Below, piece after piece: positions 28,231 to 63,895 of a stretch of 64,000 bases of DNA; positions within the stretch are counted from its first letter, which is position 1, and each line of letters starts with the position of its first letter. Under the pieces are notes generated by a model. That model did not search any database, had not been told where the DNA came from, and saw only the letters and a list, made by a program, of their open reading frames with translations. This DNA comes from Leptasterias polaris. Taxonomy: Eukaryota > Echinodermata > Asteroidea > Forcipulatida > Asteriidae. The translations under genes were made by a program, and so were the position numbers. The DNA lies in NCBI GenBank assembly GCA_037783415.1, contig JAZGTN010000149.1, positions 2,869,738-2,933,737 on the forward strand, written 5' to 3'.

Positions 28231-29026
28231 AGTTTATTTATGAATAATTCAAATACAGTCAACTGCTGGGTAAGGTTTCTACACAGCGGTGTGGGGTAAA
28301 CAATTTGACCCAACGTTGTGTTAAGAAAATTACACAACACAGGAGTTAAACAATGCTTGGGTAAAGTTCACAACATTTTGGTGTAAAAAGGGAACATGGT
28401 CGTTAGTTGGGTAAACTTTTACCAAATTAAATTGTGCTAAATTATAACACAGGGTTGTGTTTAAAGTTACCCAAGAATGGGTACATTTTTACACTTTCAA
28501 TGTTGTGCAACAAATTGATCCCTTTTTAATAAATAAAGGGTACAATTTACACCCAATGTTGAGCAATTATTTCTTAAAGTGTATAAAAGGCCTGTTGTCA
28601 AATGGCTAAACGGGCATTTCAGTATGCCAAGATTTTCCCTAAAACGTGAATAAAAAATCTATCAAGGATTTGAACTTAATAAAAACAAAAATCAAAACAT
28701 ATATAAAGCCCTCATATTATTAATTATACTAATCGGCGTTTCAGATGATGTAGGCTATACTTAGTCAATTAAATCATTAAATCATAGCGCTTACAATAAT
28801 TACAATACATATTTATACAGTATAGTGCTTAATACAGTCGACTCCCGTTATTAGGAGCTTGCATTTTACGAGGTTCCGGTTAATACAAGGTTTTTTGCCG
28901 GTCCCGAACTAAACAATGGATACTACGAGCACGGCCACCCAGTTACAATCAACACATCGTTATAACCCTTTTTAACGAAAATAGTAAAACTAAATCAACA
29001 AGAAAATACCTTGAATAGCCCGTGAG
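28231..29026 (+). repeat. Left terminal inverted repeat of the giant element
   Basis: Pairs with 63,352-63,889 in reverse, at roughly 90% identity by eye, from GAATAATTCAAATACAGTC at the outer end through CAACTGCTGGGTAAGG to GAAAATACCTTGAA at the inner end. It holds recurring short motifs, TGGGTAAA with its complement TTTACCCA, and TTGTGTT with AACACAA, as in CACTA subterminal regions. Compared with the right copy it has a 19-base insertion near 28,662 and a 238-bp insertion at 28,739-28,976. Confidence 0.85.
28739..28976 (+). mobile_element. Insertion inside the left TIR, pogo/Tigger-like end
   Basis: Absent from the right TIR copy, where GGCG joins AAAATAGTAAAAC directly. It contains CAGTCGACTCCCGTTATTA followed by repeated CCGGTTAATAC-like phrases, which resemble the terminal repeats of pogo/Tigger elements. 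The opposite end is not recognisable, so it may be a fragment. Confidence 0.45.
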
Positions 29027-29482
29027 ATAAGAATCTAGCTTATTGGATCAAACCATTGTTGAGAATGGGGGTGACAGGAAAAATCCGGCACCATTATGTG
29101 AATAAACAATACACAAATATAAAGTTGATGGTCTTTTTCAGTTAGCATAAAAACTGTACTTGGTAACGAGCAACGGAGAGCTGTTGATAGTATAAAACAT
29201 TGTGAAGTAACGTAGTTTTTGAGAAAGAGGTAATTTCTCACTAAAATAATAAAAGACTTCTGGTCAGAAGCCCTTTATTCCTATCTGAAAGCACACTAAT
29301 TTGTACAACAAGGGTGTTTTTTTCTTTCATCATTTTCTTGCAACTTCAATGACCAATTGAGCACAAATTTTCACAGGTTTGTTATTGTATGCATATGTTG
29401 GGATACACCAAGTGAGAATACTGGTCTTTGACAATTACAAAACGTGTTCAGTGCCTTTAAGGGTACCATTCAAACATAAATA

Positions 29483-32400
29483 CTATGCATATAATTCCTC
29501 ATATTTTGATTTCAGACACCTTAAAACTTCGCTGGGTAGTTTTTTGCACCTGGTAAGGTCAAAGGGCTCTCCAATTATGTCTGACTTACTTATGGTAGTT
29601 CTAAATGAGCCAGAACCCTTCTTACCAGGTGCCCTTACTTTAATCTCACTCCACTTGCTGGTGTAGGTGCCTGTAAACCAGCGAAGCTCCACAGTGTCCC
29701 CATCGATGAGGCTGACCTCTCCTATTTGGGGCCACTCATGAGAGTACTCCTCAAGATTAGTAGCCACCATCTTCCCCACAACCAGCTTGGACGATGTTTT
29801 GGTTGCCACCTTTTTCCCAAGACGAACCTTGCCAAAGAATAAGCATGTAAAGCATGTATATAATATATATTGTTAATTCTCCACTACATTATTGAACTTC
29901 AATGTTACTTTTCAAAAACACCTTTTCTCGCAGGGTCTGTCAACTAAGCTAAAGCAAATAATTATTGTTCCGATTGTGATTTTATGAAAGTAAACTTGTC
30001 CTGCTTATAATAGTTCTGGAAGAACTTGTCCTGCTTAATTGTCTACTACCGCGGAGTAGATTGTGAGCTGGGGGGAGTACCGGTACTACTTTCGTACAGT
30101 GGATCGGGAGACGGAGGATTTGTCGTAACTATCTTCACTATCGCAAAGTGAGATAGGTTAAAAAAGGTTTACCCAACAAATGCTTTTCCTAGAAGCATGA
30201 AGGAAATATTTGTCACACAACTTCAAAGTGAAGAATACCCATGTAGAAATTTACATTTGTATTTGTTCTACTTGCTTGAAGGTTCCCACTTTTTAAATAT
30301 TGTTTTCTTATCTGATAACCTCTTCATCTGAAAAACTTGTAAAGCAACAAAAAAGAAACTCTTGGTCGGCACTGGGAGGGAAACATACCTGATGTGGCTG
30401 GAGACAATCTTCAGGTGGGAAGTCGTCCTCCAATGGAGCCATTGTATCGGCCGATGGTGATCCTGCAGCAGCAATCTTTGCACCAAGAATTGCTGCGATG
30501 GGAGGATGGTGGGGTGCAAGGTTTCCTGTAACGTTTCAGATTAACATGTTTGGTTTAAATCAGTTAAAATTAAAACAGCCAATATCATGACTAAAAGAAC
30601 AAATACTTCAAAAAAGTGTAACAAATTTCTCGTACTGGATGGCATGTTTTGTTCACACTCTGAATTTCATTTGTATAGGGAGGAACTTGGGAGAATTGTT
30701 ACCAAAATACATACCTACATGCTTAGTGACTCAATTGAGATTGATTGATGCATATATGTACCCATTAATTGTTGTTTCAGTATAACTTGCAAATTTGCAA
30801 AAATGGAAACAAAAATCAATAGTTTTGAAGTAGGCCTTCATCATGAAAATATTATTGATGACCTGTTTCTTTTGTCACTAGTATTTTCATTATTATTGTA
30901 CTCAAATATTCAAATATTGTCTTACTTGACTGACGTTCTGTTTCAAAGCCAGAGAGAAGTTCCTGCCACTCAGTAGTCTCACACTCATCAAAGTAGGGCC
31001 TTGCTTTGATGAGGTCTCGCTGCAGTTTATGTATTTGGAGGGGCTCAAAGTCAGGATGGGTTGGTTTAGGATGTTGTGGTGGGTGCTTGAGGAGCAGGTA
31101 AGGCTGAACGCCCGCTGCATAAGAGCATGGAAGCCAAGACTCCCCAGTGCTGCCCCAGTTCTTTGTTTGCATGACTGCCTTACCTGTGGCAGAAAACAAA
31201 AATTTGAAAGGTCTTTGCAAACTAACATGAATAACTAGAGTCCAACAATCAGCGTCCAACAACTCGAGTTTCAATTTGTATGCCATTCTTTTAAAGTGGA
31301 AGAGAAATGCAGTTGAATATTTAGATTTATTATGTTTATGTGATAAATAATGGTTTGAATATTTCATTAACAATCTCCCAATATGCCCAATATCCGAAAA
31401 GCGTGGGGTCAAATCTATTCGTATTTGAAAAGGATGTTTGCTGATAAACCAAGCTGTCGTGCCATAAACGTACATTGTACAATGTATGTTTACCAGACTT
31501 AAATGTTAACCGTCCTGGTGGAGGGGTCTGTATCGTGTCCCAATCCCCTTAAAAAAAGTAAAAAATAATCCGACTGTGCTCTATAAAGACTGTCGATGTC
31601 CACGTTTTGCATAAATTTACAACCGGCCATAAACACTTACCTGTCTCATCCAGCGTGAATTTGAAGACATGCGGCTTACTGTGTTCGGCGACTGGGTTGA
31701 GGTGTGGCAGGAACCATTCTCGGTAGTTGAGGATGTTGACAATCCTTTCGGCTGTGACATTTGGCTTTTGGAAAGCCTTCGGCAGTAGCTTCATAAGGCA
31801 GGACAAGGTGTGTACCTTGTGCCTCAAGAGGGAGGTAGAAAACCTTGAGAACATCTGGTCGATGTCCTCATGGGTATGCCCCACCATCAGGAAGCTGACC
31901 TTGATCTGAATACATCAGACATAAAAAATAAAAAAATAAAAAAGTATAATATAGTAATGCGGAATAACTAAAAATCTCAAAACAATTGTGCATTTTGTGA
32001 TAAAGGCAAGAGATTTGCTGTAAAGGTAAAGTACTTTGCTACAATCATATTTAGATACTGGGCCATCACAGGTTTGTAGGTGGAATAACAAGCAATGGCA
32101 GCCATTTTGAAAATTGCTCATTATGAAAATTGCTCATTGCTCATAAATTATTTTATCATATATTAAATCTCTTCGTATTTGAAAAGTATGTTTACAAACA
32201 TAGTGACGTCATTCTGACAAATCAAGCTGTCGGGTCATAAACGTATATAGTACATTGCTTTGCTGCAGTACTAACAGATTTAGATCCGAGTAGAATACCA
32301 AATAAACATTGTTCAAACCAAAGTAAAAGAAAACAGAGTGTAGAGTAAAAAAGAAATTAACCAACCTTCTTAAATATGCCAAGCTCTACAAGGAGGCAAC

Positions 32401-35400
32401 ACAGGGCCAAAACAAACTTGTTTTTGTTTTCTCGCCCGCAGTTGTCAAGTTGTAGGTAGAGGGTTGGGGGTAGGGCCTGATACTTAAGAAGAGTCTGGAG
32501 CAGCACGTTGATGGTCAGGTTACTGTCATGGGGAATCTCTTTGAAATCAAGGAACACATGGTGACCTCGTCCATGCACAATGACGCCTGTTACGTGTGTT
32601 TGCAACTTCCACATTGACGAAAGTGATTTTGGTATAACCAAAAACCTCGGTAAGCTTGTCGACTTCTGGTCCATGCCATCAATAATGATGGACATGTACC
32701 GCTGTGGTGTTGTCTTTGATTTCTGTATATGTTTGTAATATTTTTGTCTCTCATTGCTGGAAAAGAGAAGAAAAACAAATTCCAACTGTTTGTAATATGG
32801 TTCTGTAGCACATGATGATGTTTGTTTAGCAGCTATTTTGATTGTCTCACATTTCAGAATAAGTAATGAGGTTGTATACAAAATATAGCAATGTTGTTAA
32901 TTTGAAGGGAGAGTGTAAGTTTGGAAATTACTCCAAAAATTAATGGTCATAAAAACTTACTTGGTAAGATGCACTGCAGCTATTGATAAACATTTTGAGA
33001 AACGATTCTGTTTGAAGTAATGTGATTTTCACTGATATCTCAAAAGTGCTATACCATCTTTCGTCATTAAACGTTCACTGGCTAGTTTTATGATATATAC
33101 ATGTAAACAAGCTCACAGTTCCGAATATGAAACGTATACAATCCCTTTAGTATATTGGCTTACTTTTGTAGTTTTAGGTGGCGGTCCCTTCTCTGGTACA
33201 ACTCCCGCCTCTTTGTCTTGTCCAGAGTCTTCTCAATGGATGAGCGAAGTAAGGTGCACTTGTCGCACTTAGCAAATCGATTTTCCTAAAAATTCAAAAA
33301 AGTCACCATGAATAATAAAACTTTTTACTAAATTGCTGAAACACAGTATTGAGCTGACACAAACAGAAGGGTTGTATAATGAACACCACATTGAAACATT
33401 AACTCTGTGTGGAATGTGCAACATGATTTTACCTTTGGGATGGCAATGTATCTAAAATCTGTCCTCCAGTGCCTAAAAAATACTGCCTCCTGACATCCCT
33501 CCTCTCCAATATCCGCCAACTCTCTCTTCATCATGCTGAACACATCCCCCTTTGTCAGGCAGGAAGGAAGGTGTATCTTATTGAAGTCAGGAAGCTTATC
33601 GCCGCACTTGCCAGCATAGTTTTCAAGCCATGTCAATGAACGCGTGGTCTTTACTGAAATTTCACCCTTTCTTAGAAAGCCTGGTGAGGGAAACTTCCTT
33701 GATCCACCTACAAAAACAAGGTTGAGCAAAAACAAAATATTATATTAACAAAGCCATGGTTATACATCAATGAATATCGGAAGGGGGGAAAAAGTCTTTT
33801 TTATCACATGTGCATTATCACATTGTGCTCATTATTTTAGTGCATTTTAGAAAACTGCAAGCCTTGTCGATGAGTTTTCAGTTTTCAGTATTGAACATAG
33901 TAGTTTGAAGGACATTGTACCGAGGGTCTTCATTTATGAAAATCTGGGTTTCACTCTTTGGGAAAATTTTCTGTAATATAAGATTTAAAGTTTCTGATGG
34001 TATGCTAAATTTCATGAAATTGGGCCTCCCCCAACCACTAACTACACCATTGATCTCATAGTACTTTGGAACAATCTGCCTCTTAATATCCGTAACATGT
34101 CATCTATTCATAAGTTCAAAGAGGCTCTCAAAACCCACTTTTTCACAGCCGCTTTTCACTAGATTCACGTGTTTCCTTCCTTGCGCCATGAGCATCACTT
34201 GTGATGGATACCGGCGCATTATAAGTGCTCTTATTATTATTATTATTAGTCAAAACAATATGTCTCACCTTCAAAGCTTTTCTTTATCTGAAAGAACCTT
34301 GTCTTGGTTATTCCATGAACATCTCTCCATGCTGTACAGCAGACCCGTTCAGTACCAATAAGGTATATGTACTCGGTGTACCCATCTCTCTGCTGGTGAT
34401 GATCCAGGAAGTAACTGAGTAACCACTGTCTCTGTGCCTGTCCTGAACGGGCGTCAAATGATGAGCGTGCTGTAGTTCCTGCTGCAATAGCAACTCAACT
34501 CACACATTTCTTGCTACAACACCGCCTTGCCATAACTGTTGCCACAGGAGTGATTCTTGATTTATCTGCAACCATTTAAAAAGAGATTATTTATAAAAAA
34601 GACAATGACAGTTTCCGAGAAGCCAACAGGTAAACAAATCAATCATTTACAACAGATACAAAAGCGAAATATTAAAAACAACCAGGTGTAAATAGTTCTA
34701 TGGTGAGCTCAGTTATTTGAGTTGATTTGTTATCGACAATTTATTCCCTGTAGCTTGTTGACATCACAGGGATTGACCATCTCCCCAGTGCTTGGTCTTA
34801 ATGAAAATGATTGATATGACACTAACTACATTTAAGTTTTCTGGGTGTTCACCTGTTCTGTTTCTGATTGTACATGTAGTGACGTAATCTTCAGCATCAT
34901 CAGATGACTCATCAGTGTCATTGAAATGTACAGCTCCAAATCGAACTTTCTTTCTTTTTCTGATGCTTGTGGTCTCTGTCCTTTGTGTATAGTTCTGATG
35001 CGTCGTTGTAAAGGTGTTTTCTTTATCTGTAAATATAGCACATTTTTGTGAGATTAAAATTTAACATCTCATTTGGATCGAAAGACATGGTCAAAGTGGG
35101 ATCATTTCAATGTAAGCACGTGGTGGTTTTCCAGACCATTCCGTCCGATGGTGTATAGATTGAGTGTAACTTGTCACCTGATGTCATCATCGTGACGTTT
35201 TAACTTTTAGGTACATTTACTAGTTAAGGTATATTTATGTGCCAAGTTGCAATTCTCTGCGAGCTTCGCAAGTATGTGTTCCGTTGCCTAGAGGCCTCAG
35301 TAAGAAGAAGGCGGTTAGTATAACAGATATGTACACATGCAAACTGTTGCTCGGTATAACTATAAGTTGTTACAGACAGGAACACTTTCAAAGTATTGCA

Positions 35401-35555
35401 AACAGACCACAAAGAATGTTGAATTATGCAAACTTAAAGGTTATTACCTGAGTCATCACTTGATAAATGAAGTGTGAAGTATTCAGAAGCTTCATCGTCG
35501 CTTTCCATCTCTGTTAGTAAACATGAGAGTCGCTGATTGTTGTCCTCAATGGCAT
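29483..35555 (-). CDS. DUF7869-type protein, multi-exon, one in-frame stop
   Basis: Ten exons with matching phases: 35,555-35,448; 35,026-34,853; 34,565-34,269; 33,707-33,433; 33,285-33,164; 32,756-32,366; 31,905-31,641; 31,183-30,926; 30,525-30,389; 29,827-29,483 (stop). The first coding exon upstream was not found. About 790 residues are visible. After an acidic start comes a Cys cluster (RCCSKKC), then the QRQWLLSYF and VCCTAWRDVHGI blocks, RHLKLQ, and the DUF7869 core: IIIDGMDQ, LQLDNCGRENKNK and VGHTHEDIDQMFSRF. The spaced acidic residues suggest an RNase H-like fold (inference). The last exon encodes a Tudor/chromo-like barrel (WFTGTYTSKW). In exon 34,565-34,269 the frame meets TGA at 34,497-34,495 (after KKCVS), possibly a CGA-to-TGA change; otherwise intact. 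Function unknown; position suggests a transposon accessory protein. Confidence 0.8.
34010..34250 (+). mobile_element. 3' end of a LINE with (TTA)n tail
   Basis: A short frame (34,067-34,162) reads WNNLPLNIRNMSS...FKEALKTHFF and stops, matching the C-terminal tail of CR1/L2-type ORF2 proteins. A 3' tail GGCGCATTATAAGTGCTC and a TTA microsatellite follow. It lies in an intron of the DUF7869-type gene, opposite strand. Confidence 0.75.
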
Positions 35556-35651
35556 CTATAATAAATTGAGTGTTAAGTAACTTATCAACAGCTTTTGACA
35601 AAGTACTGCCATGTACAAATAATAATAGTATAACACTAGTAACAACATTGC

Positions 35652-36000: not shown

Positions 36001-36019
36001 CATCAATGCCCTTAAGTGC

Positions 36020-38333: not shown

Positions 38334-38339
38334 TTTATT
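38334..38339 (-). terminator. Poly(A) signal AATAAA overlapping the BEN stop codon
   Basis: The last codons read GAA TAA A, so AATAAA contains the stop codon itself. If used, the mRNA would have a very short 3' untranslated region. A downstream signal was not identified. Confidence 0.35.
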
Positions 38340-41300
38340 CTTTTGATTGCTCTTTTGGTCCTAGCTGTCGTCTGATAACCCTATTGATGTCCTGAATTTT
38401 TTCTGTTATATACTTTTTAAACTTTGCGGCTTCAACTGCACGCTCTTCTGCAGGGACACCCCTCTTGATCAGGTGGTACATGAAGCAGTCTGTAAGGTTG
38501 AAACAACACACACCACAATAAGATCACCTTACACTTTACATTGCTTATACATGTATAGCAAACATTCCTTTGCATTTGTGTATTTGCATCATGACAAATG
38601 TGTTTTAATATGCAAACCGTCTAAGGCAGATATGACAACATTGCAATTTGAAAAAAGGATAAATTGCCACGGGCACCGGCTTTTGACAGGAAATTGTATA
38701 ACTTAACACCCAAGCGCTATATAAAATCCGCATTTGAAGCTATGCATTCTAGAAATATGTCAAAATACTGATCATCATTGGCTGAAACAACTACGCCAAA
38801 TGTACAAACTCCAACAAATTGTAAATGTTGGCAATCTGATACGGTGATGTAAAATGAACAATTTATGGTGCAAAGAATGATTTTATAAATCAATACACGG
38901 TACCATGCTCGAAAAATTACTTGCGGCATTTCATTTTGGTTTGCATGGCACAATTACTATGAGGGGAGCAATATGAGCAGATTTTAAAGTCTGGAAACTT
39001 TGCAGAAATGTTAGGGAAATTTTTTGACGGATTCGCCACTTTGTGAAAATGCTGATGTTATATTTATCTGCATGCAAATACTCACCTTTAACAGCTTTTA
39101 GCTTGTCTGGACTGAGGGGAGGTCGTGCTTCCCGCTGGTCCTTTAGACGAGGACAAACCTTTCCTTCCACAGAGCGATCTTTAAGCACTCCTGTCCCCCA
39201 GGTAGCCACAGATAGCCCCTTGGCTAACAGCGAAGGTTTAGCCTGACCTTGGAGACCTTGCCATTGGCTCTTCGTGATTGTAACTCCTGCTCCAATGTCA
39301 ATCTTTAAAGAAAGTACAGTAGTGCATGTGCTCATAATTAATAGTCAAAAGGTACATTTTTAAATCTACCTTTTAAAATCTCAGCGAGTCAAATTCAGTT
39401 TTATCCAGTACCTTTGCATGTATCTTGTTTGATATTACTAAATTTACATGTACTTGTTTCTAGATTCGGTTATCTGGTTATTCTAACCTAAAAACCACAG
39501 AGATGGAGTCATAAACTGCTTATATTTGGTTAGAACCAGATAGAGGACCAGTGATAAACCTTATTTTTCAATTTGGTAAACAGTTTAACATTTCTCCAGT
39601 ACATGTTTTTATATCTGAGGGTAGTGTGTTCTACTAGATGGAGGGGAGGAAAAAACATTTCAGATGCATTATTGTAAAAAACTAAAATAAAAAAACAAAC
39701 GCTGCAATAAATTCGCAAATGTTTAATGGAGTAATGTTGTTTTGCATTAACGAATGAACTAAAAATCTGAAAATGTCATTTTTATCAATAAAAAGGTTTT
39801 ACTGCAGATTCAGATATTGCATACCATCCCATCTTGCTCCGTGTACTTCTGAATCATGGTGTAACATGCATCATCAGTCACAGAAATACATGGACCGGTA
39901 GGCTCTTCAGTCAATGGTCGTGACAAGTGCGTTTTTGAAGAACATCCACCGTCTAAAGTCAAAGCACATATGAATGTGTTTTATACATGCTCTAGCACAA
40001 ATTATGTAAATGCCCCTGTTCCGGTTTTTCCCGCAATAGACCAATCCAGTAATTAAGGTCTCGTTCCCTGTATATTCGCCATAGCTGGGGGCTTCCAGTG
40101 CATGGACTGTGCGTCAATGTTGCTGTAAAAAGCACACAAACATAACATACACAATCCTACAACTTACAAGACGCACTTTTAACAAGTTAAACGTCTCTGT
40201 AAGATTGCGTATGCAAAAGGGGCGTGGATTTAATGCCAATGGATGCGCGCTTTTCATTCTAACAGCAGCGGATATACAGGGAAAGAGACCTTAGTTACCA
40301 GATATGTCTGTACCGGTATGCTTTGTCCCATACCTTTGAGACAAAAGAAGACTTCCTAGAAAAATGTAAGAATTACATTCCTGTTTAATTTTTAGAGGTA
40401 TGGGGCCGTCCATTAAAGGAGTGTGACCAGATCACTTTTTTTTACCCATAACTCCCCGGGACTTACCTTATGGGTCATGAGATTTTTATATCATAACATC
40501 CGTTATATTTTTCTGATGACGAAACTGAAACTCCAGCGCTTCTAGGCCGCATATTTCCGAGGATATCGTCGAAAATCCACCGATTATTTGTAAACTAATT
40601 TTCCAGTATCAACGTTTATCCACTGAAAGCCGACTCGATAGTTTTGTTCAATTTTTTACTGGAAATCGCGAATGTTTTCGGGTTTTTGGGACATGGGAGG
40701 TGTGTATGGGAGTTACTTGATAATATTGGTAAGTTACATCGAAAACTATTTTCCAGAAACTCTGGTCATGCTCCTTTAAGTATGTACGTACGAAATGCCC
40801 ACTTTTTAGACCACCACCCCTTCCGCTCGTACGCAAAATTTGTGACATCACCCATATTTTGTAACAGTGGCTCAAATGCGTCCAAACTATCCCAAAAAGA
40901 ACTTTATTGATCCGCCATTTGCATAAACCTACCATTCAGTTTGTTCAGCAGTTCCTTCTGAAGATTCTTGTTTAAGTATTGGCGACAACATCTTTTTTCA
41001 GTTTCTTCACTTCATCTTGTAACTCCTCTTCATGCTTCTGTAGTTGGCTTACTCTCTTCTTAGCACACCTTAACTGTGAAAGGCACTCGGGTCTGTCACA
41101 AGCTTCCGATGACTGGGAGTGTGATTTTAGCGAAGGAAAGGGCGGTGCTGTGGATTTTTTTGCCAGATTCTGCTTGATAATTTCTTTGAGTGATTTCTGT
41201 TTTGCCAAGCCTTGATCCCGTCTTTTCTCTTTCTGAAAGTTCAAAAAAGTTTAAATTTCCATTGAGGAAACCTACGCAAATGTATGTGAAGTTAGGCAGC

Positions 41301-43486: not shown

Positions 43487-44065
43487 GATGATGATTATCC
43501 ACTTTATTATTATAACACACTATGATGATGATAAAAACCAAACTTCAAAGAAGGCTGTAGGAGAAGTAATAAGTCATGTAAAGAAAGTGTATTATTAAAC
43601 AACGCATGCAAAAATGTGCAATGTCAGCATATCGATCATATCAGCGCACGCGCTCGTACGCCACGTGGCGTAATTAGGCTTGGACGCGCGCCTGAGTTTG
43701 AGCCTATTATTCTTTAAAAAGGAATAAGAATGTCATTGGTCTTAATGACAACAATAAATATAAATATGCATTCCACGTATTTTATACATATTGTATGTAC
43801 TATATGTAGGCTTAATTTAAACGTTTCCCCTACTCGAGCATTTTTGCTTCGCTAAATGCCTGTAGGAGACTGGTTCCCTGTCGTCATATTTACTTCCCCT
43901 CCGTCGTAACATAACAAGAGCAGCGTAGCGTATATGGACAGGGGACCAGTCTAGCATGGCAGATGGCTGACTCGACCGTTCATTCCGCACCACACAAGAC
44001 GTCGTGAATGCATATCACGAACGGTCGAGATGGTTGGATCATGTGCCTAATAAGGGGTTCGGCCC
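43487..44065. promoter_or_regulatory. Presumed divergent promoter region, left half
   Basis: Lies upstream of the BEN start codon. With the nested transposon removed it joins 52,214-52,314, giving about 680 bp between two start codons that point away from each other. No TATA box or binding site was confidently recognised; the call rests on geometry. Confidence 0.4.
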
Positions 44066-51500: not shown

Positions 51501-51700
51501 TTCCGAATTGAAATACCATATTCTTGCAGACGTCTCTTTATAGTTCGATCGACTCGTCTTCGTAGATTTCTGACAATAACATCGGCTGCATGGACGGCCG
51601 CCATGTTTGCATGCATGATGTTATGTGCAACACTGAAAAGCGCCCTAAAGCGCCCTCGTCGTTCAACATCAGTTAGACCTTTTGTGAAAACGTCCTTCAT
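48561..51700 (-). CDS. IS3EU-like DDE transposase (integrase core), intact, 4 exons
   Basis: Exons 51,700-51,427; 50,639-50,447; 49,719-49,170; 48,791-48,561, all GT-AG with fitting phases, give 415 residues without a break. The N-terminal 91 residues are Arg-rich. Exon 2 carries GYKTVDGYLISQG, a helix-turn-helix-like region, and SLWHIDGHHKL with the first catalytic Asp (about 148). Exon 3 has GGIDGYSRAIVFL, SRVRSDHGGEN (second Asp, about 206) and HNTRIERLWRD (Glu, about 242), a D-D-36-E arrangement typical of integrase cores, then FLPRINHCIECF. Exon 4 is an acidic tail. It would cut and join the element's ends. The start codon and first ~25 codons lie within the right TIR; a Met further in (MAAVHAADV) is an alternative start. 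Confidence 0.9.
49855..50100 (+). mobile_element. SINE-like fragment with (TTA)n tail
   Basis: Ends with GTGCTATATAAATTTA-like and GCGCTATATCAGACTTCGG phrases followed by a TTA microsatellite, like the SINE at 35.65 kb. The tRNA head is not clear, so it may be truncated. It lies in an intron of the IS3EU-like transposase. Confidence 0.45.
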
Positions 51701-52207
51701 GGCTACGTCCTTTGGTGGTGGCTTTGTCCTTTGGTGGTGGCTTTGTCCTTTGCTGCTGTGTGTTTGTCCTTTGATTCTGGGAATGAGTATTATTCGACTG
51801 GCGTTAGTCCGTCGACCGTGCCCACGTCGTTTTGCAGTTTCGTCCTTTGATTGTGAGTTTGTCTTTCTGTAATTTTGAACTCTTGTCGTTTCGTCCTTTG
51901 ATTGTGAGTTTGTCTTTTTGTAATGTTGTCCTCTTGTCGGTTTGTCCTTTATTTGATTATAATTTGTCTTTCTGTAATTTTGTCTTCTTTTTGTTTTGTC
52001 CTTTGGTTTTGACTTTGTCTTTCTGTGAATTTGTCCTCTTCTGGTTTTGACCTTTGTTTGATTTTGACTCTGTCTTTTTAGTTATTGTTCTCTTGATGTT
52101 TTGTTTGTTTGTTTACTCATGCCTTTCTTATATGAATTTGTCCTTTGACTGTTCGTTTGTCCTTTGATTGAGTTTTTCTTTAATTTTGGCCCTTTTGGCC
52201 GCCCATA
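51625..52207 (-). repeat. Right TIR of the nested transposon
   Basis: Inverted match to 44,066-44,638. Contains the transposase start codon at 51,700. An extra copy of a GGGCGCTTT phrase near 51,645-51,655 distinguishes it from the left TIR. Confidence 0.95.
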
Positions 52208-52213
52208 CGGCCC

Positions 52214-52314
52214 AGCCATGCTCATTCGTGTCAATGTTTACGTAGCGTACTGTACTGGTGCACGTTAATACACATTTTGAATTAACATTCATTATTTTTT
52301 AATTTGTAAGAAAG
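52214..52314. promoter_or_regulatory. Presumed divergent promoter region, right half
   Basis: The hundred bases between the nested transposon and the transposase start codon. AT-rich close to the ATG. See the left half at 43,487-44,065. Confidence 0.4.
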
Positions 52315-55300
52315 ATGGCCGATCGTCCGCGATTTCTTAAACGTTATCGAACGTACCTTGAACCTCACACTTCAAATGAGGTTCCTCGCACTTCAAAACA
52401 GAGATGGGCGGTTTTACTGAGCGAGAACCACGAAAACGGGGACAGAGTGAGAGTCGACAGAGACAATGTAATTTATCCGGATACGACTAGTACTAGTACT
52501 AGTAGTACATGTACGTCTCTGATAAATGTGAGTATATGCAACCACTGGCCGGGTGCAGGTTAATACTTCAAGATAGCTTAAAGTACCTGTTTTGTTGTTG
52601 TTTTTTTTTTTCAATTTGTTTTTTGTTTTTTGTTGCTTTTGTTGTTAATTTTTTATTTTGTTAATTTTTTTTTAGGCCGTTACTTTCAGGGTGACGTCAT
52701 TTTTTCTCCTATCCCATTTGCAGCCCCCAAACGGAATCTTTAAGTCTTTTTACTGGAAATTGCAATTATTTTGGTAAAATCAAAATCTCTACACATTCTA
52801 CATACCGGGTACGTGCCCTGGCCGTAATACTCTCAAAACTTGGGTACACACGTTTATTTCTCTCCAATCGATGAAGACACTTGCACCAGACCGCTGATTC
52901 TCGTAAAAATATCAAAACGCTTAAATGCTAGCTTGGTCACGTGTCAGCGTGTTGGTTCGGATGAAGTTCGGGGATCTGTGCTTGATGCGGGCGGCGGGCC
53001 ACAGACACGCGCAGACACGCGTACACGGCCGGGCCTAAACGGCAGAAACGAACGAACACGCCTACGCCCAAACTTCACCCTTTATTATAGCGCCCTCTTT
53101 ATCCTAAAGGTGACCAAGCTAGCATTTCAGCATTTTGCCATTTTTACGAGAATCAGCGGTCTGGTGCAAGTGTCTTCCTCGATTGGAGAGAAATATATAC
53201 ATGTACCCCACTTTATCAATTGGAATGCAATATTTTATTTAGAGTTATGCGTTTTGGGCCCTCAATAGAAAAACCTGCGTAAACAAAATAATCCAAGAAA
53301 TTTGTGTGTTGAAGAGATAGGGTCTTGTGTCCGGAAATAAGTGGGCTCGCGAGCTCTCGTACATTCTCGGTCAACTTAGATAGTCTATTGTTGACCATAT
53401 AATAACCATTCCCGAATGTCCTAAGCTGTCCTATTCTTTCTGCATGTACATTTACTTTACATTTCAGTCATGTATATTGTAATTTGTGTATTGCATTAAC
53501 AGGATATGCAACAAACCAGTGGTGCAATTGTCAATGTGGAAGACTCTTTTCCATGTGCTGCTGCCCAACAACCAAGTGCTGGCAAAAAACCAAATGGAAA
53601 CCGAAACCCAGGTGATGGCACAGACATAAGTGACAACAAAGACCTGAATTATGATGCAAGTCCAGAACATTGCAACTTGGATGAACCTGAACAGTTTGTT
53701 GTCACTTTTCATGAGGTAAGTAGTGCTACCAAACGTCACACGTAAATGACTTTTATCTTTCCTCATTGTTAGTTGCTCACATGCCTTTTTTAACTATGAT
53801 TGATTTGAAGGTTACAGATAACACTAGCAATTCATAAACATCAGGGGATCCTTTACATGAACATGCACACCGAAGCAAATATACACATGTTCTCATTTTA
53901 TTTGGGAGATTGTACGTGTAAGTCATTTGGTATTTAATAAACACATTTAATGCCACAATCATCTATAACCATTACAATTTTGTCTTATTTATCATGCATT
54001 TCCCCAACAATTGTATTTCCTTTCATTGCATTATGATTTTGCACAAAAAAATACATGTATGTTTATCACAAGCACAGTGGCGCATGGAAGCCCACATTTT
54101 TGTGAAAGAAATACATGTACATTGCATAATATCATGGAGTTACTGGTACACCAAAGAAAATACCTATAGTATTTATTTTATGAATATGATAATGTTTTTC
54201 ACCGTCCCTCATTGAAAAATCTTCCAATGTGTTGTTTGGAACAAATGTTTTCCAGTTGTTCAATACTCCTATCTGCACAAAATGTGCACACCCAACTCAT
54301 ATAGTACGGTGTGTAAATATATCACTGACAGCACAGCCACAGAATGTCACAGCTGTACATCTGTGTGTTGTAAAAGACCTGCTTTATGCAGACCTATGTC
54401 AAAGCATAGCCGGCATAAATGCACTAAATGAGATGGATTTCCATGGATTTCCATTCGCCCTCATTTTGCCCGTTAAAGCATTCTGTAATTTAACGCAACG
54501 TAATATCTGCAGAAATAAGACTCGTATATATATTGCATCTGCAGAATATCCACCAAGTTGACTGTGCTAGTAATGATGGTGTTGCAGTGGAAGGACTTGG
54601 CAATTCTGACGAAGGCCCAAGCGACAGTGAAGGCCCTGGTGACATCGATTGGCTGAGTAGCCAGAGTGACGGGGACGGCCCGAGTGACGGCCCGAATGAC
54701 GGCCAGAGTGACGGCCCGAGTGACGTCGACGGCCCGAGTGACGTCGACGGCCCGAGTGACGGGGACGGCCCGAGTGACGGGGACGGCCCGAGTGACGGGG
54801 ACGGCCCGAGTGACGGGGAAGGCCCGAGTGACGGGGAAGGCCCGAGTGACGGGGAAGGCCCGAGTGACGGGGACGGCACGAGTGACGGGGACGGCACGAG
54901 TGACGATGATGATGGTCATCTGAGCAGTGATGATGATGATGGTCACCTGAGCAGTGATGATGATGATGAAGATGGCGGGTTTGATGTTGATGAAGCTTTA
55001 AACAGCCCATTGTGTGCCGGAGTCACAACGACACGTGCTGAGGCCTTGCTGATGATAATGTCATTTGTGATGCGGTATGCACTTTCATCAGTAGCACTTG
55101 TTGGCATGTTAAAGCTAATAAATGAGCTGTTTGGGAGGCCTGTGTTAAAGGCATCAAAGTTTCTTTGTCGAAAAATCTTCCATAACAAATGCCTCAAATT
55201 TATTTTCCATTTTTACTGCCATCATTGTTTCACTCTAGTGGGCACCTACAGAGAAGATAGACCCCACAGTATCCCCTGTCCACAGTGTCAAAGAAATTGT

Positions 55301-58300
55301 TTGCTTAAGAACCTGTCAAACGGCAACTTTTTTGTAACAACTGATTTACAATCTCAGTTTAGGACTTTATTTGAAAACCCGGAAATAGTTAGAAATCTCT
55401 CTTACAGGCATACGCGAAGTAAGGAAATGTACGACGGTATTGAGGACATTTATGATGGTGAAATTTACAAGTTACTTTGCCAGCCTGGACAACCTTTACA
55501 CAGTGATACAAATTTCTCCTACTCCTTTAACACTGATGGCATGCCTGTCTTCAAGTCCTCCAAATACTCTTTGTGGCCTATATATTTGATGTTAAACGAA
55601 CCCCCCCCGAGACTAAGAAGAAATAATCTTATTTTGGCAGGTCTTTGGTTTGGGAAAACAGAGCCGAAAATGAACATATTTTTGAATGAGTTTGTTACAG
55701 AAGCAAATAAACTTGTTACTGAAGGTGTTGTTTGGATGAACAATGGTCAAGCCATTCAAAGCAGGTTGTATGGTATATCATGTAATGTTGATGCACCAGC
55801 GAGAGCTGCAATGCAAAACACTGTCCAATTTAATGGTTACATGGGTTGTGGGTTGTGCTTCCATCCAGGTGTCATTGTCGACAGAACAGTGAAATATCCT
55901 GTCAATGTAATTGATTATAATGACCGTACTGACAATGAAATGTTGCACGATATGGTAATGGCTGTTGAGGAAGGTCGGATTGTTAGGGGAGTAAAAGGGC
56001 CAAGTCCACTCATAAATATGGCACACTTTTCTGTTGTTTGGGGATTCCCTGTCGATTTCATGCATTGTGTTCTCCTAGGTGTGATCAGGCAAATAACATA
56101 TTTGTGGCTTGATTCTCCTGCTGCAAGTCCTTTCTATATTGGCTCGGTTAATACCATTGTTTGTATAGATAATATGCTGATGAAAGTCAAACTTCCAAGT
56201 TTCATCCCACGAACTCAAAGACCCATATCAGAGCGCAAGTACTGGAAAGCAAGTGAATGGTATAGCTGGCTATTGTTTCTCTCTTTACCTTGTCTTGTAA
56301 AAATCCTTCCACATGCGTATTTCATTCACTTGTGCACACTGGTTGAGGCAATATTTTTGCTTCTCCAAAAAAGTATCTCGGAATTTGACGTGAACAGAGC
56401 TGACGTTCTTTTGTATTCTTTTGTTGCAAACACCCAAGTTTTGTATGGACCATCAAATATGACTTTTAATATTCATTCCCTCACCCATTTAGCCAAAAGT
56501 GTAAAGATGTGGGGACCACTTTGGACGCACTCTTGTTTTCCATTTGAAGCAGCAAATGGCAAAATTAAAGCTCTTCTTCACGGCAGTCGTGGTATTGTAA
56601 TGCAAACTTTGTATAACTTTCTGACACTTACAACGCTTCCTACCTTTCAACTTGCTTACAGAATATCTGATCAAAAAAAGGCATTCTGTGAAAACACCCT
56701 CTTCTCCAGTAAATCAGTTCCGTCACAGGTTTTTGGGGAAGTTCAGTTATTTGGAGCTGGTCAAGTGATTCTTTTTACACCCCAGGAAAGACATGCCATT
56801 CAAGAACATGAAGCACTGACATTCAATAGAATGTCGATAAGGGGACTGACATATCATACGGTGGATTATCATAAGTCCACAACTAGAAACAACAACATAT
56901 TTTTAACTGATGATGGGAAAAGTGTTTCTCTCGACATCAGTAATTTTTGTGCTGACAAGGGAGAGCTTGAGCATAAACTCAGTGCCACCCAGGATGCAAT
57001 TGAGTTTTCCATGCTGGCTAACGACATTTTGATAGGTGTTGATGGACAAGACGGTGACCAAGTACAAGGTAAATCATAATCATAATCACGGACCCTACCG
57101 TGGTACAGAGCTAGCTGAGTGTACATGTAAATTCATTGTATTTGGGGTGACCTTCCCTTGTCTGCTGCAAGTCGCATGTATGGGACCCTTGTTGAAAAAA
57201 GCCAAGTCTTCCCAAATTCACATTGTACAACGTGAACACAGAGTGGTTACAGAGTGTCAGGCCCAATGACAAAATAATTGAAACTGACCCCCGGCCCTGT
57301 CGAATCAAACGATGGAAGTCAAGTAAAAGTGACAGCAATTTACATCAGATTGTCAATAAATACTTCAACTAGGACATTGAGCAAATTGTTTAGTCTCTGC
57401 CAGCCACCGTAACAACTCATTTAAATTTCGAAATGTCACAGCTATACAATAATTATTATTATTAATTTTTTTTTTTTACTCACGTAACTTGTCTTTAAAA
57501 CCAATTATAAGATATTACAAAATAGCCGAAGAAGAGAAAGATCTTATCAGTTAGTTACTAAACAATAAATACCCGACGAATAAATTATAACAATTTCAGA
57601 GAGTACTCCTTTGCCAAAGAAGAGGTGTCGACTTTTGAGAAGAACCATTGAACCACCTGCAAAGCGACAGGCTGTAGAGTCATCAGCCGAGTCAGTCGAC
57701 AACATTCTTCGGGCCAAGTGCCTTGGTAAGTGTGATTTTGTTGTAGCTTTAATTACGGACGACTTCAAAAAAACAAAAACAAACAAACATTTGTATACAT
57801 GCACTTAAAAGCCAATACAAACAATGATCATTAAAGACAAATATTATCTTTAATGGATCAATAATCACCCAAATTTACATTTTTTTGTTTTTGTTTTATC
57901 TTGTCCGTTTCAAATGCCTTAAAAATTGAATTAAAGATGCACTGCCCGTGTTTTGGCGGAATTGACGTTCAAACTTTATTTAAATGTCACAAAGTTGGGT
58001 AGAAAATTTATTATCAAACATTTGATACCTTGAACGAAAAAAAAAAATGTCAAGGATAAATGGCAATTAACTAAACACTAAACAAATCTTAAATGCTGAC
58101 CAGTCTTAATGTTTCGCGCACATGTGACACAACTTTTGAATAATTATCGGCACCCGTTTCAAAGACAGAATTTGTATCTTTCCCCGAGGTGGCCACCAAT
58201 TCCCAGATTTGAATATCTTGAATATCATTATGTGGTATGTTTTTTAACATTTGATGGATGAGATTGGCCTTGAAAAATTATATATAATATATTTGAATGT

Positions 58301-61300
58301 TGTATTTTCGTTCAGGAGAGTACCGTGTACCACTCTCTTGCCTGAAGGAGCCCCCATCATATCTCCTCCTCCGGCCTGTTGACCAGAAGCACAAAGAGCG
58401 AATCAAAGAAGGCCTGAAGGACACGAGGACATGCAGCACCGTCCTCCCGGTTTCGCTGCTGGGTGACATATTTGATCCTAACAAGCCCACGGCCTCCCAG
58501 TTTTACACTCTTGGAGGAAACCATCTGGTGTCCGCACTGAAGGAGCTGATGGATGATAAGATGTACCTCGAGCTGAGAACCGTTTATGTAAAGGTATACC
58601 GTGGCCTTCAACGCACCGAGGCGCTTCGGATTGCGTCACTGCATAACGTCGGCACTCATCTAGTGCAGGGGGGGAACCTGTGCCACAACGTGGCACTTTG
58701 TAGAAGGCTGCTGTACCTTCATCAAGGCCGCGACGAAGAACTTGATGCCCCACCGCCTTCTGACGTTTTGTGGAGGGAGAGTTGTGGCATTGCCCTCGGG
58801 AAAAAGTACCCAGTGTGCTCAAAGGTACGGACAAGTTTAAATGATTTTCCATATAAGACACAGGCGCGTTTAAATAATCCCACCCTCAGTTATTTCCATG
58901 ACCGATGTTACCGATAACGGGATTACAACCCCTTCTTAACCATTCGATCAACACGTGTCCTCTATCAGGATGTCCGACAAAATGGTTTGTCCGACAACAT
59001 TGGCCCCAGTTAGGTTGGACCTGAAGATTAAACACTACACACGCAGAAAGAGATTGCATTGTGTAAAGTTGATGTACTTTTGGTAACATATAAGTCGAAA
59101 CCGTGTCAACTATAAATAAGAAGTCTTTCAGCAAAAGCCAATGCAACCTCCATTAACACAAGAGCATCGTTTTTACAGCTAGAACAGCATAATATATCAG
59201 CAAGGTAATTTGCCTATATATGAAGACTTCTGAATAGTAAGACTGTTCTTACTTTGTTTTATTTTAATATCTGCAGGACCTGAAGAGCCTTGAACCGACG
59301 TTCCAGTTGGCCCAATACTCAACGAGGTGTCATGCAAAACTGATGACAATCTTCGAGCAGCATAGCGAGCAGACGGGCCAGTGTCTTAAGCAAACCGTAA
59401 GATTTTCCAATCAAATTAACAAATTTTATTTATTTATTTAAATCTTTGGACAAGCGTATAAGTATACAAGTTACAATTTTTGATATGTCAAGGTCAATTT
59501 TACAGCATTGTTTGACCTGGAGAGACATACATTGGTTTTAACTACGACAACATAAGTATGTTCATACTTTCAAAGCTTACGTGCACAAATTGTCATTCAG
59601 AGACCAGTTATTGTTGTTCCTTTATTTTTGGTAAAACTCTGTTGTTTCTAATAATAATAAGAAACATAAGGGGTAAACCTTATATCATTATTTTATCATA
59701 TACCTTGTTACAGGCCTTCATGAAGTTGCAGGGGCTACCTGAACCAACTCGGTTTGAGTTGTTGTCGGAGGTAGTGAGTGACAGCATGACTGTCAAGGGA
59801 ATGGCGAAGGAGGCCGAAAAAATAAAGAAGCTTCGTGTTGTTCAGAAAGAACTGGTTGAACAACTGTCTTTGCCATCCTGGGAAGATGCTGAGCGACTAT
59901 ACCCTCAACATACACGAGAGCGTGTCCTTCAGCCCTTCTCAGGTACACTAACCCATTTCAAAATAGTCCTTTAAGGAGTCATAAACTCTGAGAGTCACGT
60001 ACTGTTCGCTTCTTAGCTACTTTTATTTTTCCAAAGGACAAATCTGTGATGATCCAGTATCCAAATACACATTAAGTTTTGTAATGATTTACTTGACCTA
60101 TATAGCAAATCTTTTGCCTTTAAAAATGCACAATTGTTTTGAGATTTTAAGGTATGCTATACATTTCTATAATTTAAATGCTGTCACTCATTACAATAAT
60201 GCACAGTTATGTAGAAATTACACAAGTAATACATTAGCATGAGATATGATTTATACTTCTGATTAGAGGTGATATTTACTCATTCGATGCTAAACAAAAT
60301 TCAAAATAATCTGTTACTTTCTTCAAGCATTCAACAAACATCATCTATGCAGCCTCTTCATGACATTTCAAGTGACTTCTCCAAATTGTTAATTTTAATT
60401 GACTTCTCCAAATTGTTAATTTTAATTTTTAAATTCAATGGTTTTGCGCATAAGCACACATTGCTTTTGGAGCATACTTAACAGATGGTAATTGTTATTT
60501 ATTATCGATTCAAGGATGCAACTTCAAACAAGGCATCCCAAGACCCTTTATGGCCTTCGTCAAGGATGCACTGGAGTGGAGGAAAAAATCCCAACTACAA
60601 GCAACTTCCAGTGCCACTGAGACACCTCATTGCATCACTAATGAGGTGTCTCGGGTCGTCTTCCTGTCATCATATGATCAACAAGCTTTGCTGCATGTGG
60701 CAGGGTTTACTGGGATTGTGGCGATCGTAGCAGACATGGAGGTACCATTACATTAAATATATTTTAATAAGTAGTCTTTATGTTGTATTATTGTGGTCCT
60801 ATGAAGAGAATAGCCGCGCATATAAAGTCAATGTCATTCAAAGAAGACATTAAGAGTACATTCACATGTCAAGTTTCAATACAAGAACATGTAATCTGTA
60901 ACACAGATTAACATCGTAAGACAACTACACTGAAAACCACGACCCCCCCCCCCCCCCCACTTCGAAGTTACTACGTCATCTCCTTTTAATAGTGAATAAA
61001 TCACGCAATGTCGATGACAGAGCATTTTCCAACATGGATGTTCAGACCAACTTGGGTAGTGAATGGTCTGGAAGCACCTTATACAATGTTTCTCCCTACT
61101 CAGATTAACAGTCTCTCTGCGGTTGCCATATTTGTATATGATCATACATGTAGCCCCACCTTGATGCATTCATTTCGTATGGTATTTTGCTCTATTGAAA
61201 GTGGGTTTTTGAATACATGAGTCGAACGGTTCAAAGTCCTGCTTTTGTGTGTTTTGCGTAGATTCTTCTTTGTTTTAAGTTCGAAGCAGTAATATCAACT

Positions 61301-62911
61301 GGGATTTAATTGCTAAAACAAGTTTGTGATATACTCGATTTACAGTACTTTGTGTTTTTATCCATTTTAGGAAAGCACAGCAGACTTAGAAGACATCCAG
61401 AAAATGGCTTTGAATTCCGGTCAGCTGGAGGGGAGCATATTCGTCAGAACATCCTCAGACACAATTTCAGGGGTGAGGGGGTTCTTCCATACGAACAAGT
61501 TTCAAGGAGTCACTAACCTCTACAATTTCCAGATGCAAAAGAAAGGTAAATACATATCTTGCCAAATTGACACTCAAAACTAAAAAAGCAAGAACACTAT
61601 TATGTGTCGAATATGTGTTCTAAAATCATGTTTGACGCAACCCGAAACCAGACGTTCAAAACTAAATATTTCAATTATATATTATAATAAATATCAATAT
61701 TGGACTAGTGCATTTTGATTAAGCAAAATAGTATTTGGCAACCAAATTTACATTTTTCAAAGGATTTCTCTTAGGTGTATTTATGCTTCAATGAATGTTC
61801 AAAATATTTTGTTCTAATTGCTCAATTGTTGCAGTAAATATCCTCTTCCTATATTGCCATCAAACCCGCACAAGTTCCCTGTTAATAAATATAGGTTACA
61901 TGTATCTGGGAAATGCTTATGTTCTCTTACTCTTTGAATGCCAGTAATGTCAACCATGGTCAAAGCCGTTTGGAGGAAGGATGGGGCCAGGACAGCTGCA
62001 GGTGACATGCCAGATGTCCTGACAGAAGGAGGCATGCTCGACCACATCTTCAAGGACATCAACCATGGTGACTGGATTATCGACAGAACTAAAAATGGTA
62101 AGTAAATTTTAAAATGTAACAGTTCCTGATTTGCACTGTCCAAGTAAGCAAGTTGAACAATCTAAGATAGAGTTAAATTATTGTGTTTCCAACTTGCAAT
62201 CCAAAAGCTTGCTGATAGTACAATTCTTGTCAGTTTCGTTAAATTGCATTTTCATCGCAATAATAACACCAAGTTCATGACATTTTCAACAAGTTTGTTT
62301 TATATATCGTGTACTATTTTCTCAAACAATGATGCAGATCTTTGCTTCAAAGGTATGATGCATCATTGATTTCGAGACAAATTTAATTCATTCAAATCAC
62401 CTAGTTTTCAAAATGCAACCTTGAAAATACCATCACAATCAGTGTTCACGTTTTTGACAAAACAGCGAATAAGGGTTTTCATTTTATCAGTTACTTTGTG
62501 CCCGTTTATATTGTTGCTTGACTTTGATTGTTGCAATCGAAATCAGCTGCTGTGGGTTGTTTGTGGTCTGACTATTTTCTTGAAGATCACAACATTCCAG
62601 ACGGAATGTTCCAAACAGTTACAAACAGTAATATGTCAGATTGAAAATGATCAAAAAAAAAAATGGTCATTACAAAAGCTGTATCGTCCCTTTAACAAGC
62701 ACGGTTATTTGTACTTCTCTTTTGAACAGGTGAAGCTACCCTTCTTGCAGTGAAAGCTCACGCAAATGTTATCTCCATAATACAGCAAAATGCAACATTG
62801 CAGAGCGAGATGAAATGCAAAGTTACTGCTCTTATGCAGGCAAGGGCAGAAGAGGACATCAATTCGGAGGACAGTGACCTCAGTACATCTCTTGAGGAAG
62901 ACTCTATTTAA
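52315..62911 (+). CDS. CACTA/EnSpm-type transposase fused to ParB/Srx-like domain, 11 exons
   Basis: Exons 52,315-52,527; 53,503-53,715; 54,545-57,068; 57,600-57,725; 58,316-58,824; 59,277-59,396; 59,714-59,942; 60,515-60,741; 61,371-61,545; 61,945-62,097; 62,730-62,911. All borders are GT-AG, phases agree and no stop intervenes: 1,556 residues. Order: a basic N-terminus (MADRPRFLKRYRTYLEP); an acidic repeat (about 180-265); a zinc-ribbon-like CHHC...CPQC (about 365-390); the CACTA transposase core (FNTDGMPVF, GLWFGKTEP, VDFMHCVLLGV, HSLTHL, FEAANG; the D, D and E in these are candidate catalytic residues); a basic PKKRCRLLRR stretch; a ParB/Srx-like domain with YTLGGNH (about 1,090) and RTEALRIASLHN; a long C-terminus without a known domain. 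The joint between exons 3 and 4 is the key inference: the frame meets a stop 11 bases after the donor. Two separate genes remain possible. Confidence 0.75.
52858..53192. mobile_element. MITE with ~80-bp TIRs in transposase intron 1
   Basis: TTCTCTCCAATCGATGAAGA...AGACCGCTGATTCTCG...GCTAGCTTGGTCAC pairs with GTGACCAAGCTAGC...CGAGAATCAGCGGTCT...TTGGAGAGAA. 335 bp, non-coding. Confidence 0.8.
54545..57068 (+). CDS. Exon 3 of the fusion gene: transposase core
   Basis: Listed on its own because it is the most secure part of the gene: 841 codons open from the acceptor at 54,543 to the donor at 57,068. The blocks SKYSLWPIYLMLNE, LILAGLWFGKTEPKMNIFL, VKGPSPL, PVDFMHCVLLGV, FNIHSLTHLAKSVKMWGP and CFPFEAANGKI are the signature of TNP2/DUF4218-type transposases of CACTA elements. 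The exon begins with an acidic, Ser/Gly/Pro-rich segment coded by an 18-bp repeat. Confidence 0.9.
54662..54905 (+). repeat. Coding minisatellite, 18-bp unit GACGGGGACGGCCCGAGT
   Basis: About 13 units encode (D/S)DG(D/E)GP(S/T)-type repeats inside the transposase. GC content is far above the surrounding sequence. All frames on both strands stay open through it, which explains the long shadow frames on the minus strand. Confidence 0.9.
58316..58824 (+). CDS. Exon 5 of the fusion gene: ParB/Srx-like domain
   Basis: The 169 codons read GEYRVPLSCL, then LRPVDQKHKERIKEGL, LPVSLLG, YTLGGNHLVSALKEL, VKVYRGLQRTEALRIASLHN. The order (strand, helix with conserved Leu/Ile, Pro-hydrophobic strand, Gly-Gly-Asn-His turn, helix with Ala-x-x-Leu, strand, EA-x-x-hydrophobic-A helix) is that of the ParB/sulfiredoxin N-terminal fold, where the GGNH turn takes the place of the GERR or GCHR motif that binds nucleotide. 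Whether it hydrolyses CTP or ATP cannot be told. Eukaryotic proteins of this type are little described. Confidence 0.6.
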
Positions 62912-63351
62912 TTTGGACAACACGTGGACATATACATGTACAGTGTACATATACAGTGTACATGTACAGTAAATAATTGTGTGCACAGTGTGTGCATGTA
63001 CCGCAACATAACTCTTTTTAATTAATTTAGTTTGAAAGTCAATGTATAAAATCAATTAACAATTTACATGATTTAAAAAAACGTCTGGGATTTTAACTTG
63101 CCGTTCTGCGTAGCCAACGCGGGATACCAGGGAAATCTTGCTGTTGCATTAAATATTGATCGGGCAAATATTTCAGCTTTTAAGTAGCGTTGCTAATTGC
63201 TCCGCTGCAAGCCTCCTAATCCCACTATTGTCCGGAGTTTTGAATTAACAACCTGCTCGCTGACTTGTGACTCGAGTCTTGTGGGCTAGATTGCTAACAA
63301 CATCGTCCAATTAGCACCTTTATTTATTGTATACAAGCCATAAATAACGAT
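62912..63351. other. Spacer between fusion gene and right TIR
   Basis: Contains a few TACATGTACAGTG-like units at 62,933-63,000. No further gene. A clear AATAAA near the stop was not seen. Confidence 0.4.
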
Positions 63352-63889
63352 ACTCGGGCTGTTCAAGGTATTTTCTTGTTGATTTTGTTTTACTATTTTC
63401 GCCGATTAGTATAATCAATAATATGAGGGCTTTATATATGTTTTGACTTTTGTTTTTATTGATAGATTTTTTATTCACGTTTTAGGGAAAATCTTGGCAT
63501 ACTGAAATGCCCGTTTAGCCATTTGACAACAGGCCTTTTATACACTTTAAGAAATAATTGCTCAACATTGGGTATAATTTGTACCCTTTCGTTATTAAAA
63601 AGGGATCAATTTGTTGCACAACATTGAAAGTGTAAAAATGTACCCATTCTTGGGTAATTTTAAACACAACCTTGTGTTATAATTTAGCACAATTTAATTT
63701 GGTAAAAGTTTACCCAACTAACGACCATGTTCCCTTTTTACACCAAAATTTTGTTTACTTTACCCAAGCATTGTTTTACTCCTGTGTTGTGTAATTTTCT
63801 TAACACAAAGTTGGGTCAAATTGTTTACCCCGCACCGCTGTGTAGAAACCTTACCCAGCAGTTGACTGTATTTTAATTATTCACAAATT
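63352..63889 (-). repeat. Right terminal inverted repeat of the giant element
   Basis: Reverse-oriented partner of 28,231-29,026, running from TTCAAGGTATTTTC at the inner end to GACTGTATTTTAATTATTC at the outer end. It lacks the 238-bp insertion of the left copy. Confidence 0.85.
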
Positions 63890-63895
63890 AACACA

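Follow-up and report, generated by a model that had tools for sequence, protein, structure and literature searches.

The window analysed here comprises 64,000 nucleotides of the sea star Leptasterias polaris (contig JAZGTN010000149.1, here C149, positions 2869738-2933737), and its end coincides with the end of the contig. Within it, four gene regions encoding a DUF7869-type protein, a BEN-like protein, a Transposase_21 (CACTA-type) transposase and an accessory protein lie between long terminal inverted repeats that contain a palindromic satellite (Table 1). These repeats delimit a mobile unit with defined ends, as inverted identical termini and 4-bp target duplications are found at two other sites in the genome. 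Gene models were made from open frames and splice-site dinucleotides. Genome searches were run against the 629.7-Mb, 334-contig assembly, and the copy maps leave out matches inside satellite arrays as well as short or overlapping matches.

Table 1. Features of the giant element and of the insertion nested in it (window coordinates)
Feature	Position	Strand	Basis
True left end, 370-bp unique terminal segment, begins AACAGCAAATACTACC	22566..22935	+	Exact start of whole copies (C163, C17, C64), at both ends, inverted
81-bp-unit array within terminal inverted repeat	22936..27969	+	TRF; 12-mer count
Left terminal inverted repeat, inner part	27970..29026	+	Inverted match to right arm; continuous with array in C17 and C163
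DUF7869 gene, 10-exon model, exon 3 with a single in-frame TGA at about 34495	29483..35508	-	Exon model; PF25273
BEN-like gene, roughly six exons, with a frame break in exon 3 at about 40985	38335..43486	-	Exons by eye; weak PF10523
Nested 8.2-kb element, 571-bp inverted repeats (99.8% over 566 bp)	44056..52217		Inverted repeats; rva_4 and RVT_1 open reading frames
Transposase_21 (CACTA-type) coding exon	54494..57068	+	PF02992
Accessory gene, 8 exons in frame with transposase exon	57600..62911	+	GT-AG junctions; one open frame to stop
Right terminal inverted repeat, inner part	63355..63892	-	Interrupted after 63892 by copy of window 45115-45737

A preliminary description of this DNA had proposed inverted repeats near 28,231-29,026 and 63,352-63,889 and had taken 28231 and 63889 as the ends of the element. 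The repeats are real. In BLAST, 28232-28738 matches 63400-63892 in inverted orientation with 93.9% identity over 507 columns (E 0), a second stretch, 28976-29022, matches 63355-63401 with 96% identity, and about 240 bp (28739-28975) are present in the left arm and missing from the right. The ends, however, lie further out. In the copies on C163, C17 and C64 the similarity continues outward from window position 28232 through the array to 22566, where it stops sharply, and AACAGCAAATACTACCAAAGTGAAC is read at each of the six ends of these copies (both sides, inverted). The terminal inverted repeats are about 6 kb long and consist of a 370-bp end (AACAGC...), the array of 81-bp units and the inner block. 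On the right, the repeat is interrupted after 63892, 108 bases before the contig end. On contig C265, which carries the same locus, the right repeat is followed by a copy of window 45115-45737 and by two further copies of 45115-47119, after which about 203 bases of the repeat recur at 368779 and the array runs on to the contig end at 386161. Since repeat and array resume there, the right arm has received an insertion, with 63892 as the insertion point. The element on C265 exceeds 69 kb, insertions included, and its right end is unassembled.

The inserted 2-kb stretch 45115-47119 is found on C265 as a partial copy at 358244-358863 and as full copies at 361820-363821 and 366782-368784. The full copies of this reverse-transcriptase stretch end at the same base, 47119, and the insertion of this stretch in the right arm is flanked by a duplication of about 203 bases of the giant element's repeat.

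C149, C265 and C169 all represent the same locus in nearly identical form: over window 18156-64000 the identity of C265 is 99.7%, in an alignment that passes beyond the end of the element, and C169 matches 27327-47119 with 99.9% identity, its match running on into the left flank. A search of the assembly with the 370-bp end returned 15 matches, three of which belong to the window locus; C64, C163 and C17 have two each, and C36, C119, C65, C233, C102 and C127 one each. Besides the window locus four sites were read, two of them whole (C64; C163/C17) and two in part (C36, C119). The copy at C64:1830588-1845401 has TTCA on both flanks and that at C163:57065-97808 has TTGA on both flanks, in each case a perfect 4-bp target duplication. 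The copy at C17:40620-64065 has the flanks of C163 in opposite orientation, so that C17 and C163 represent one site.

None of these copies has the full gene set. C64 holds accessory exons 4-9 and lacks the transposase and DUF7869 genes; C17 and C163 retain the last three accessory exons near one end and the last DUF7869 exon near the other. The 3' part of the accessory gene is therefore present at two of the four other sites and the 3' exon of the DUF7869 gene at one. By their sequence, the C64 and C17/C163 copies are internally deleted derivatives. C64 differs from the window at 28 of 3862 noncoding sites and, in 359 codons, by one synonymous and four nonsynonymous changes with no new stops. 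C17:46765-55898 is without match to the window, and C163 has an extra 16.5 kb (62632-79182) in one arm. Both C36 and C119 have solo ends, the former with an array of no less than 9 kb, the latter with 2.5 units; 20 kb of C36 and 8.2 kb of C119 were read and gave no credible match to the gene set (best E 0.44 and 0.43, respectively). The idea that the element moves as a unit thus stands for a larger unit than the one first described, with the same ends and 4-bp duplications at two sites, but the copies there carry only parts of the gene set.

With the right repeat as query, 24 matches were obtained, 10 of which are partial copies of 66-77% identity on other contigs. Two of these ten, on C68 and C6, were read over 10 and 9 kb; neither an end nor an array was present there, and no gene match was credible (best tblastn E 0.56). 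The preliminary description had named repeats found mostly without the genes as an observation that would speak against a mobile gene set, and this holds in part, for the partial copies on C68 and C6 and for the solo ends on C36 and C119. The inner block 28232-28583 stands alone at C68:2046476-2046854 and C6:5205832-5206187, with about 72% identity and, in the stretches read, with neither ends nor array; it may be an older dispersed repeat that was incorporated into the terminal repeats.

The array is made of units of 80-81 bp (TRF), each with two GATAATATTATC palindromes. This 12-mer occurs in 105 exact copies in 22936-27969 and nowhere else in the window, with about 0.001 expected from base composition; all 120 sites with at most one mismatch likewise fall within 22936-27969. 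The repeated subterminal motifs had earlier been assigned to the inner repeats. In 28232-28600, however, exact 7-mer counts show no excess (TGGGTAA occurs four times; 200 shuffles gave a mean maximum of 3.65 and a highest value of 8), and the repeated motif lies further out, in the array.

The genes are arranged outward and, as noted earlier, end about 440-460 bp from the repeats, with stops 457 bp (29483) and 441 bp (62911) away. The assignment of the central transposase to the CACTA/EnSpm group is borne out by its match to PF02992 (E 5.2e-7, 29.5 bits, cut-off 28.6). It is 69% identical over 79% to an Acanthaster planci homologue carrying PF02992 and keeps 73 of the 77 columns conserved in at least 90% of 46 homologues, including 18 of 19 D/E/H/C columns. 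A candidate 5' exon near 52339-52482 is given by a single match (36%, E 0.002). Genome-wide, 54 Transposase_21 matches were scored, from 53 of 686 first candidates; among them this transposase subfamily is intact only on C149 and C265, followed by C58:2230813-2232308 (67-72%, with stops) and then by copies at 51-53%. C58 carries 26 of the 54 scored matches, a striking concentration within this sample of candidates.

The transposase exon is joined to the eight accessory exons in one frame that runs to the stop at 62911. The first part of this frame matches Transposase_21 and the remainder matches P0170 and P0171. Three genes had been counted before; the present count is four gene regions, which becomes three when the transposase-accessory frame is taken as a single gene. 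With P0170 of Asterias amurensis the accessory protein shares 81% identity over 95%. As the start of P0170 resembles the end residues of the transposase exon, and the first junction is by eye common to both, this junction is supported in a second species. Homologous transposases have a further C-terminus that the search did not recover here, and the window frame therefore seems to continue into the accessory part. By eye, 56911-57068, where the transposase frame ends, resembles the N-terminus of the free accessory protein P0171, which suggests that two once separate genes were fused by a deletion. The description of the accessory protein as ParB found no profile support: P0170 matched no family in Pfam (E<=1) or NCBIfam (E<=5), and P0171 matched no ParB family in Pfam or NCBIfam (E<=5 in both), its best Pfam match being Phage_tail_terminator_7 (E 0.0034, under the cut-off). 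The structure model of the accessory protein (pLDDT 38.7, 2 sequences) is too poor to use. The A2 profile search against solved structures gave one match, to a ribosomal protein (E 2.2), and a P0001 scan of viral contigs found no relative.

The presence of a DUF7869-type gene was confirmed, with exon matches to PF25273 at E 7e-38 and 2e-31. Its in-frame stop is common to the window, C265 and C169. The predicted structure of the homologue P0053 (pLDDT 87.4) has an RNase H-like fold with structural matches to DDE recombinases, with a helical part at the N-terminus and a domain rich in strands at the C-terminus. In 50 aligned rows D298 and D377 are invariant and E416 nearly so, and all three are kept in the window gene. 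The protein is thus a predicted DDE-type recombinase, having the D, D and E/D residues on an RNase H-like fold in the model. At E<=0.001, 501 homologues were found, and many of the 120 listed come from marine invertebrates; a search of an open-licence library found nothing on DUF7869.

For the BEN-like gene a match to PF10523 is present, as proposed, but it is weak (E 0.0027, 18.3 bits, under the cut-off of 23.2) and was obtained on the joined model. The sequence at its frame break is the same in C265 and C169. Between the BEN-like and DUF7869 genes, 36012-37124 is a simple satellite with units of 11, 24 and 35 bp (GGGGTCCCGTT...), in which several frames are open. The nested element, with an rva_4 integrase-core open reading frame at 49149-49757 (E 1.8e-71) and a reverse-transcriptase open reading frame at 46168-47124 (RVT_1, E 1e-5), is not part of the mobile unit proper. 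Outside the giant element, the stretch 16415-18156 is present in C149 and missing from C265 and appears from these two contigs to be a polymorphic insertion or deletion; a reverse-transcriptase open reading frame extends over 17178-18284 (E 1.5e-37).

The identical inverted ends and target duplications at the two other sites are those of a cut-and-paste element. Membership in CACTA/EnSpm holds on the transposase and fails on the termini and on the length of the duplication, which is 4 bp (TTCA, TTGA) at two independent sites. Plant CACTA elements produce a 3-bp target duplication, and 2-3 bp are expected of the group. An animal CACTA element, SmTRC1, has a Transposase_21 protein as well and, in the available text of PMC1636069, is described with a tandem-repeat region and alternatively spliced transcripts giving several products; it is 4.5 kb long, with a 2-bp duplication in 7 of 14 copies (PMC1636069). 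Compared with SmTRC1 as described there, the sea-star element has AACAGC ends, a 4-bp duplication and a length of more than 41 kb, and it adds kilobase palindrome arrays in its inverted repeats as well as DUF7869 and BEN-like genes. Giant EnSpm elements are reported from red algae such as Chondrus (16-20 kb with 4-5 open reading frames) and Ectocarpus (up to 15.2 kb, the giant families mostly with nested insertions, PMC12477816), and in the parts of these reports available (PMC6431247, PMC12477816) they resemble the sea-star element in enlargement and nesting. The latter resides in an animal host, is larger and has a gene set that differs from theirs by these descriptions. Ectocarpus also harbours the giant transposon Sola1-1, for which PMC12477816 gives one accessory protein that is both ParB-like and a DNA methyltransferase, so that a ParB-like accessory protein is already on record for a DNA transposon of a eukaryote; for the sea-star element neither a ParB profile nor a methyltransferase family was obtained. 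The gene set was not found described in searches of an open-licence library, among them searches for EnSpm with a BEN domain and for CMC-EnSpm in starfish.

Overall, we consider it rather probable that the locus carries a giant sea-star cut-and-paste DNA transposon with AACAGC ends, a 4-bp duplication, array-filled repeats, a four-gene interior and the Transposase_21 protein as its cutter. This protein would cut at the AACAGC ends, and the BEN-like protein, the accessory protein or both would bind the GATAATATTATC palindromes and thereby join the two distant ends. The model for such pairing is maize Spm, in which TNPA brings the ends together via subterminal repeats. The maize element, En/Spm, makes several products, TNPA and TNPD, one of which is thought to bind the subterminal repeats; it resembles the sea-star element in having several products from one transposon and differs in that the sea-star array is kilobases long. 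Transcripts of maize En/Spm are also described in the available text of PMC1636069. The DUF7869 protein may be either a helper or the true mover, and smaller derivatives such as C64 would move in trans. The window copy itself is probably not fully autonomous because of the DUF7869 stop, the BEN frame break, the absence of the usual transposase C-terminus and the interrupted right end.

Several observations weigh against this reading. The termini are not CACTA/CACTG, as AACAGCAAATACTACC stands at both ends of the C64, C163 and C17 copies. Transposase and BEN-like gene were found at none of the four other sites (two read whole, C36 and C119 in part), and within these ends the transposase was seen at one insertion site only (C149, C265), as is the BEN-like gene, with a further match on C169. 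The right end of the window copy lies beyond the assembly, its own target duplication is therefore unavailable, and its left flank ends in TTTT. About 80 residues that form the C-terminus in homologous transposases were missing from the window by tblastn (E<=0.01), and that the array is read by one of the element's own proteins is a step that we infer. With respect to DUF7869, the Foldseek list includes unrelated folds from rank 5 downward (acetyl-CoA carboxylase, ribosomal proteins, Argonautes), several top rows of the VIA list have root-mean-square deviations of 10-18 because they span several domains, and the absence of other folds from that list does not exclude them. The four genes were seen together between these ends at the window locus alone, and either the Transposase_21 or the DUF7869 protein may be the mover.

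It is unlikely, yet deserves to be weighed seriously, that the DUF7869 protein is the mover, a DDE recombinase like those of Mu, mariner or the integrases that cuts at AACAGC and joins with a 4-bp stagger, the CACTA-type gene being cargo or helper. The predicted DDE fold with conserved D298, D377 and E416, ends and a duplication unlike those of CACTA, and the last DUF7869 exon within the ends at C163/C17 and in the window all point this way. Moreover, both families occur in echinoderms and look separable, as the transposase listing (49) also includes fish, ticks and insects, and the 120 listed of the 501 DUF7869 homologues include molluscs, corals and amphioxus. In other echinoderms no contig common to transposase and DUF7869 homologues was seen by eye among the listed cluster representatives, which says little. 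On the other hand, the DUF7869 gene has an in-frame stop in all three copies of the locus, the accessory gene is in frame with the Transposase_21 exon, DUF7869 is missing from C64 (as is the transposase), and no DUF7869 element without Transposase_21 was delimited in this analysis.

A composite formed by nesting, in which an older element with satellite ends received separate insertions of CACTA-like and DUF7869 elements and only its outer ends move, seems improbable to us. Nesting is common at this locus (44056-52217; the repeat in the right arm), the BEN-like gene and the transposase are found at one site only, and the inner block of about 350 bp stands alone on C68 and C6. Against this, the two outer genes face outward and stop 441 and 457 bp short of the repeats, and on C17/C163 their 3' ends recur beside the two ends. 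In addition, there is no further inverted pair around either gene besides 44056-52217, short hairpins and one intron pair (31964-32077 and 60038-60155, 77% over 122 columns), internal target duplications not having been searched. A CACTA element ending at 28231 and 63889, as first described, is very improbable: the similarity of the window arms does stop there and a Transposase_21 gene is present, but other copies extend the repeats to 22566, the break at 63892 is due to an insertion and no CACTA ends stand at these positions, so that these ends were rejected. We give almost no credence to satellite arrays and segmental duplication mimicking a transposon. It is true that C149, C265 and C169 carry almost the same sequence of one locus and that arrays could recombine, but at two other sites the ends are sharp and identical, their flanks differ and the 4-bp duplications are perfect, which argues against it.

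Taken together with the preferred reading, a giant transposon cut by its Transposase_21 protein, the results provide exact ends and target duplications for a multi-gene animal DNA transposon of more than 41 kb and offer a candidate function, that of a DDE recombinase, for DUF7869, a domain of unknown function. Furthermore, they tie a palindromic satellite to transposon ends, so that the pairing of giant-transposon ends tens of kilobases apart and the origin of some satellites become directly testable. We tentatively raise the possibility, which we hold with some doubt, that the element represents a new lineage of giant animal transposons with two recombinases, one CACTA-type and one the predicted-DDE DUF7869 protein, and with self-made satellite ends that are read by its own DNA-binding proteins. 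If this is true, the element would also seed satellite DNA in the genome.

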